A stretch of 64,000 nucleotides of DNA from assembly GCA_016214695.1 (NCBI GenBank), contig JACRNY010000001.1:1054001-1118000 (forward strand). Reading direction: 5' to 3'. Source of the DNA: Nitrosomonadales bacterium (GTDB lineage: Bacteria > Pseudomonadota > Gammaproteobacteria > Burkholderiales > Gallionellaceae). The first letter of the stretch is position 1. Each line of letters opens with the position of its first letter. A program made the translations under genes and the position numbers. Of the stretch, positions 56,414 through 56,578 are shown one piece after another. The notes under the pieces were generated by a model. That model did no database searches. It was not told the DNA's origin and saw only the letters and a program-made list of their open reading frames with translations.

Positions 56414-56477
56414 GGTTATTCCTAATAAATTTGAGGCTATTGGAACTATTTTCGCACAGTCCCGTCAGAGTCAGTGA

Positions 56478-56578
56478 GCAGCGAAAGTTGCTTCCCGTTT
56501 CTCCTCCCTGAGCGGGTGTCTTAACCACAGTTAAGACTTTGCCCCTGACCTCCCCCTTTGGTTCAGGGGCATTTTTTT
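56478..56578 (+). ncRNA. Candidate small RNA (unnamed) between hemB and engB, ending in a rho-independent terminator
   Basis: Plus-strand stem-loops GCAGC-GAAA-GTTGC; CCCG-TTTCTCCTCCCTGAG-CGGG; GTCTTAA-CCACAG-TTAAGAC; GCCCCTGA-CCTCCCCCTTTGGT-TCAGGGGC then ATTTTTTT. 5' end not determined. Confidence 0.6.
56541..56578 (+). terminator. Rho-independent terminator on the plus strand
   Basis: 8-bp perfect stem GCCCCTGA/TCAGGGGC followed by A and T7; flanking genes are both on the minus strand. Confidence 0.88.

Follow-up and report, generated by a model that had tools for sequence, protein, structure and literature searches.

The anti-hemB RNA family (Rfam RF02837) has an experimentally known relative in B. 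cenocepacia: ncS04 is a 105-nt transcript whose start was placed by dRNA-seq and whose 3' end was placed by RACE, and binding to Hfq was reported for it (PMC5688073). The predicted targets of the CU-rich small RNAs of B. cenocepacia cluster at ribosome-binding sites, and in Neisseria the sibling sRNAs NmsR and RcoF, also betaproteobacterial, have unpaired, CU-rich stretches with complementarity to ribosome-binding sites (PMC5688073). In sX13, C-rich loops repress G-rich targets, and this RNA acts independently of Hfq (PMC3771888). ErsA is dependent on sigma-22 (PMC5819304). Schmidtke et al. described the polA locus as common to sX13, Spot 42 and the alphaproteobacterial ar7 RNAs, a set that did not include anti-hemB (PMC3771888). 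Our literature search returned no paper on a hemB RNA motif, and none that mentions ErsA with sX13 or either of them with anti-hemB.

The window, that is, the whole 64,000-nt stretch analysed here, comes from a member of the Gallionellaceae. In it, hemB (55406-56413) and engB (56584-57213) both lie on the minus strand and leave 56414-56583 as intergenic sequence. A cmscan of the whole window gave two matches above curated cut-offs, a tRNA (7727-7800) and anti-hemB. The latter, at 56492-56578 on the plus strand, scored 60.5 bits against a cut-off of 49.5 (E = 1.2e-11) over the full length of the model (1-81), and it sits where members of RF02837 are expected, between hemB and engB and on the strand opposite to both. 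An earlier note, made from the sequence alone, had proposed an unannotated small RNA in this spacer. The gene coordinates agree with its description of an intergenic element between two minus-strand genes, and the stems, loops and U-tract that it listed were all found on checking the sequence. The element is, however, a member of an already catalogued family, and so not an unknown RNA.

The best explanation as a whole, to which we give a probability of about 0.8, is that 56475-56578 (plus strand) is a small regulatory RNA in its own right, which belongs to the RF02837 family and has a predicted size of about 104 nt. This delimitation draws on the Rfam match, on the length of ncS04 and on the match of our own model R1 (56465-56578, 119.6 bits), which was built solely from 27 Gallionellaceae sequences; the 5' end is predicted to within 2-3 nt. 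Reading along the plus strand, the RNA starts with a hairpin, GCAGC-GAAA-GTTGC (56478-56491), closed by a GNRA tetraloop and left out of the anti-hemB Rfam model. Hairpin 2, CCCG-[TTTCTCCTCCCTGAG]-CGGG (56494-56516), has a 15-nt loop containing the anti-Shine-Dalgarno-like stretch CUCCUCCC (56501-56508), whose CUCCCU core was invariant in all 43 beta- and gammaproteobacterial sequences compared. Hairpin 3, GTCTTAAC-CACA-GTTAAGAC, occupies 56518-56537. A rho-independent terminator follows (56541-56578), recognised from sequence and fold, with the stem GCCCCTGA...TCAGGGGC at 56541-56570, a second C-rich loop, CCUCCCCCUUU, at 56549-56559, and a U-tract of seven T at 56572-56578. A plus-strand open reading frame at 56539-57471 (TTG start) was set aside as a mechanical antisense frame over engB.

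The family is widespread. RF02837 matches above cut-off were present in 91 of 100 genomes of the same family and in 190 of 300 genomes of the same order, a breadth that the name "Burkholderia RNA 7" hides. A search with the exact 23 nt of hairpin 2 led to relatives in Sideroxydans, Gallionella, Ferriphaselus and Ferrigenium (Gallionellaceae). Nearly all scorable copies were flanked by antisense genes, 5' by hemB and 3' by engB; these synteny counts are lower bounds, the strict loop pattern having missed many copies. Over the Gammaproteobacteria in the GTDB sense, 168 of 369 genomes had a match at E <= 1e-3. Outside the order of the window, 59 of the 67 matches that could be placed were at the polA/engB locus: 22 had polA in sense on the 5' side and engB antisense on the 3' side, 19 had engB alone in that arrangement, 14 had polA alone, and in 4 the match was on the opposite strand. 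E. coli has polA, spf (Spot 42) and yihA (engB) in the same arrangement. Among 16 gammaproteobacterial polA/engB loci scanned, nine reached the cut-off of RF02837, and at the matches every other Rfam family stayed below its cut-off in all 16. In some gammaproteobacteria, two to four anti-hemB-like copies stand in tandem (L271, L275, L008, L013, L276 and L281), and several of these arrays are near polA or engB. At another locus (L293, 2244-2377), between engB and polA, the sRNA gene and its own GTGAACT...TCATA promoter are both inverted. Elsewhere, a c-di-GMP-I riboswitch aptamer (L019, 2037-2121, minus strand; 77.9 bits) precedes the sRNA match by about 450 nt.

Do these engB-side RNAs descend from one gene, or do they merely look alike? 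Small RNAs with C-rich loops arise in distant bacteria (PMC3771888), and the window sequence reaches the cut-off of neither the ErsA model (RF01719) nor the sX13 model (RF02232), so that the likeness to ErsA, sX13 and the gammaproteobacterial polA-engB RNAs could reflect convergence on an architecture of C-rich loops and a terminator. Against this, the locus and the orientation beside engB are shared, the loop sequence is shared, and in many cases so is the type of promoter. As an unbiased test, R1 was run on engB loci of the class chosen regardless of any sRNA. It matched 15 of 29 at E < 1e-3, always in the engB-side spacer, 14 times convergent with engB and once inverted. It also matched a true ErsA locus (22.3 bits) and two true sX13 loci (19.6 and 21.5 bits). 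At spf the match was partial, limited to the 3' part (19.2 bits, E of 0.0005-0.0015); R1 was given a short calibration, and its E-values are rough. Over 539 kb of related sequence, 62 matches were obtained in 62 sources, with no background match up to E = 2. Sub-threshold matches of the ErsA model (for example G055:C31, G156:C11 and G064:C130) and of the sX13 model (G082:C1 and G171:C33) coincided with anti-hemB matches. Upstream of ErsA itself we found TTGAACTT...TCATA, consistent with its known sigma-22 dependence. Convergence therefore appears rather unlikely, and common descent of anti-hemB, ErsA and sX13 is likely, though not proven.

On balance we favour a history in which anti-hemB, ErsA, sX13 and the unnamed engB-side sRNAs, possibly with Spot 42, go back to a single sRNA gene that ran towards engB, was originally driven by sigma-E and acted through C-rich anti-Shine-Dalgarno loops. 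Several lineages would later have acquired another promoter, exchanged polA for hemB as the 5' neighbour or placed the C-rich loops differently, and the gene would have been duplicated, giving in the Gallionellaceae two siblings with different promoter types in one genome. The window sRNA would then be the betaproteobacterial form of an older gene that, in beta- and gammaproteobacteria alike, lies beyond the 3' end of engB and runs towards it; ErsA and sX13 would be other named forms of this gene. At one engB-side locus (L285, 1334-1443) the sRNA also matched the alphaproteobacterial ar14 model below cut-off (38.6 versus 58.8 bits), a hint that the kinship may reach the alphaproteobacteria.

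The second sibling in the window's own genome (G000:C1:168270-168359, minus strand; L002) scored 47.4 bits with RF02837 and 84.0 bits with R1, and has a kinase-like gene on one side and cspA/infA on the other. It retains the 5' GNRA hairpin and the CUCCUCCC loop, and its second C-rich stretch, UCCCCCUUU, is located in the middle hairpin, not in the terminator. This exchange is general: the middle loop was C-rich in 18 of 21 second copies versus 3 of 27 hemB-side copies, and the terminator loop in 1 of 21 versus 15 of 27. The genes next to second copies vary between genomes, and we therefore regard these copies as dispersed paralogues. A sigma-70-type promoter, TTGACA-N17-TATTCT, precedes L002, and similar ones precede four other second copies in relatives.

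The promoter of the hemB-side copy is of another type. On the plus strand, a -35 element GGAACT (56442-56447) and a -10 element TCAGA (56465-56469) are separated by 17 nt in the upstream alignment, a form of the RpoE-type (sigma-E, ECF02-like) promoter. Scored as [GT]GAAC[TC]-N15-18-TCNNA upstream of the sRNA, the motif was present before 30 of 31 Gallionellaceae hemB-side copies, 29 of them with N17 (0.2 expected from shuffles), before 20 of 30 other Burkholderiales copies and before 30 of 55 polA/engB-side gammaproteobacterial copies (0.2-0.3 in shuffles for either set). RpoE itself is encoded in the genome (320 bits, cut-off 236) and, above cut-off, in all 30 Gallionellaceae relatives. Most relatives tested have GAACT-N17-TC before rpoE, at 117-139 nt from the match, some site being found in 24 of 30 with a loose pattern; the window's genome has TGAACT-N17-TCAA there, and the spacing of the sRNA promoter is thus that of the putative promoter of its own rpoE gene. 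Typical sigma-E promoter geometry predicts a transcription start at about 56474-56476; a start near 56475 gives 104 nt, in agreement with the 105 nt of ncS04. The earlier note had left the 5' end open and had found no convincing sigma-70 promoter. None was found by us either before the element, and the TATTTT that it offered as a -10-like element gives way to the conserved sigma-E-type promoter, which it had overlooked; the 5' end now has this predicted position.

Genome-wide, the looser sigma-E motif was not enriched over a reversed control (19 versus 19). One site therefore proves little, and the case rests on conservation. The exact form GGAACT-N16-18-TCTGA occurs once in the genome, at another place (L313, 1502-1695; G000:C3:98057 onwards), about 60 nt before a 36-codon open reading frame whose small, hydrophobic product may be a membrane protein under sigma-E control.

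The same sRNA could instead be expressed constitutively from sigma-70, as seems to be the case in Burkholderia, with GGAACT-N17-TC having another role or being a relic. In B. cenocepacia, ncS04 was unchanged in every tabulated condition, induction by SDS not being reported (PMC5688073), and the second copy, L002, has its TTGACA-N17-TATTCT. In addition, at three Burkholderia-type loci, which score like the Burkholderia core and belong to large (about 7 Mb) Burkholderia-like genomes (L032, L033 and L050), the sigma-E motif is absent, so that sigma-E control is not universal. A TAT[GC]AT -10-like element is found there about 35 nt before the Rfam start, which suggests a promoter switch in that lineage and would fit constitutive expression there. 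The window copy, however, has no sigma-70 site, and the sequence of its sigma-E motif and the 17-nt spacing are kept in nearly all 31 relatives and match the promoter of its own rpoE. Constitutive expression of the window sRNA is thus unlikely in our view. SigE of B. bronchiseptica uses rpoHP3, a sigma-E promoter of E. coli (PMC3490749), and from the conserved motif we infer sigma-E control of the window sRNA in its own organism.

That the conserved molecule is an RNA read from the plus strand follows from its structure. The segment 56455-56580 folded at -45.6 kcal/mol, versus -30.7 +/- 3.2 kcal/mol for dinucleotide shuffles (z = -4.64), and none of 200 shuffles was as low. RNAalifold on a mixed MAFFT alignment (A1) gave 7 pairs only, stems 3 and 4 being misaligned, and we used instead an alignment of 27 Gallionellaceae sequences (A2), made without structure, onto which the structure was written from the window sequence. 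Standard pairs occupied 90.7% of cells in A2, versus 83.2% in shuffles and 34-49% in slid controls, and two-sided changes affected 15 of 25 pairs (8.6 in shuffles) and 65 cells (21 in shuffles). The 5' hairpin was the best supported, with two-sided changes in all five pairs and 97% of cells paired; its loop was GNRA in 17 of the 27 sequences. The stem of hairpin 2 was paired in 100% of cells. Hairpin 3 was paired in 99.1%, with two-sided changes in 5 of 8 pairs, and in 7 of 8 among 82 Burkholderiales matches. Pairing of helix 4, the terminator, was only 73.6% in A2 because its arm is partly misaligned there; it was 96.2% in A4, an alignment fitted to the model. In the 82 Burkholderiales matches, 96.7% of cells were paired and 21 of 25 pairs covaried, figures that lean towards the structure, this alignment being fitted to the model. 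Conservation of stems and U-tract at orthologous spacers, which the earlier note had named as a check, is thus present, with covariation.

Helices 1-3 contained 49 G-U cells versus a single A-C cell in the 27 sequences, and therefore the conserved RNA is the plus strand. This bears on a reading in which the element acts in cis on the minus strand, as a hemB leader or attenuator, its plus-strand look being incidental. The element does lie directly upstream of hemB, whence the name anti-hemB. Yet the G-U pairs fit the plus-strand reading only, it is only on that strand that A and T7 follow the terminator hairpin, the promoter motif is directed along it, other gammaproteobacteria have polA and engB beside the element and no hemB, and in B. 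cenocepacia it is a plus-strand transcript that was mapped (PMC5688073). We consider a hemB leader very improbable. A terminator of engB was rejected with it, on U-tract, G-U asymmetry and synteny; the absence of a U-tract after the stem on the minus strand, on which the earlier note had already denied the element this role, was confirmed from the sequence. A last reading, in which the element mainly terminates or insulates transcription between hemB and engB and has no regulatory role as an RNA, would explain a strong plus-strand terminator between two genes but is scarcely credible, as both genes run on the minus strand, where the stem has no U-tract, and a terminator would not need loops as conserved as these.

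For the small RNA itself we propose the following course. RNA polymerase with the envelope-stress sigma factor RpoE would transcribe the plus strand, and the transcript would end at the rho-independent terminator after about 104 nt. With Hfq, the exposed loops CUCCUCCC (hairpin 2) and CCUCCCCCUUU (terminator) most likely pair with the G-rich ribosome-binding regions of several mRNAs, and translation of these would be lowered under envelope stress. We observe a separate sRNA gene on the plus strand, with conservation of its promoter type and of its single-stranded C-rich loops; transcription and Hfq binding are known in a relative (PMC5688073). Pairing with mRNAs, repression of translation and the set of targets are inferred, Hfq-assisted repression through the C-rich loops being likely. 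Such loops would match any ribosome-binding site. By analogy with sX13 (PMC3771888), Hfq dependence may differ here. The earlier proposal of a trans-acting plus-strand sRNA with anti-Shine-Dalgarno-like loops is thus supported by the conserved structure and loops and by the mapped, Hfq-binding ncS04.

In itself, the RNA adds one more member to RF02837. Beyond that, the analysis contributes the sigma-E promoter, the two siblings, which differ in promoter type and have exchanged their loops, and a connection between anti-hemB and the locus of ErsA and sX13; sigma-E control of anti-hemB and its kinship with ErsA and sX13 appear to be unreported in the literature searched. A poorly understood family thereby gains a testable function and a history, and the conserved promoter would place the anti-hemB sRNA in the envelope-stress regulon. 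The engB-side locus is common to anti-hemB, ErsA, sX13 and Spot 42. If they form one family, four separately studied RNAs become comparable, what was learned of ErsA and sX13 targets and mechanisms could be transferred to betaproteobacteria, and an Rfam clan is possible.

Compared with anti-hemB as described (Burkholderia RNA 7; ncS04), the window RNA has the same sequence, structure, hemB-engB position, CUCCUCCC loop and terminator. It differs by its sigma-E-type promoter, apparently sigma-70-like at the Burkholderia-type loci L032, L033 and L050, by its C-rich terminator loop and by the second copy in its genome. NmsR/RcoF (RF02877) are likewise siblings in which unpaired CU-rich stretches are complementary to ribosome-binding sites, but the window scores 20.7 bits with their model against a cut-off of 52. 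With sX13 (RF02232) it shares stem-loops with C-rich motifs, a polA-side locus in the wider family and sub-threshold cross-matches; it differs in score (22.9 bits, cut-off 50), in having two C-rich loops among hairpins 2-4 where sX13 has three stems with C-rich apical loops, and in its promoter, no GAACT-N17-TC being seen for sX13. ErsA (Pseudomon-1, RF01719) is alike in its polA/engB-side locus, its sigma-E-type (sigma-22) promoter and its C-rich loops, and several genomes have places that both the RF01719 and the RF02837 model pick out; the window, however, scores 16.6 bits with RF01719 against a cut-off of 50, and polA is replaced by hemB, the engB side of the ErsA locus being present here and polA lying on another contig. 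Spot 42 (spf, RF00021) is the product of a CRP-repressed gene and is not known to have C-rich loops. Its model gave no match to the window up to E = 1, and its gene lies between polA and yihA/engB, next to and convergent with engB, as does the sRNA gene of the window.
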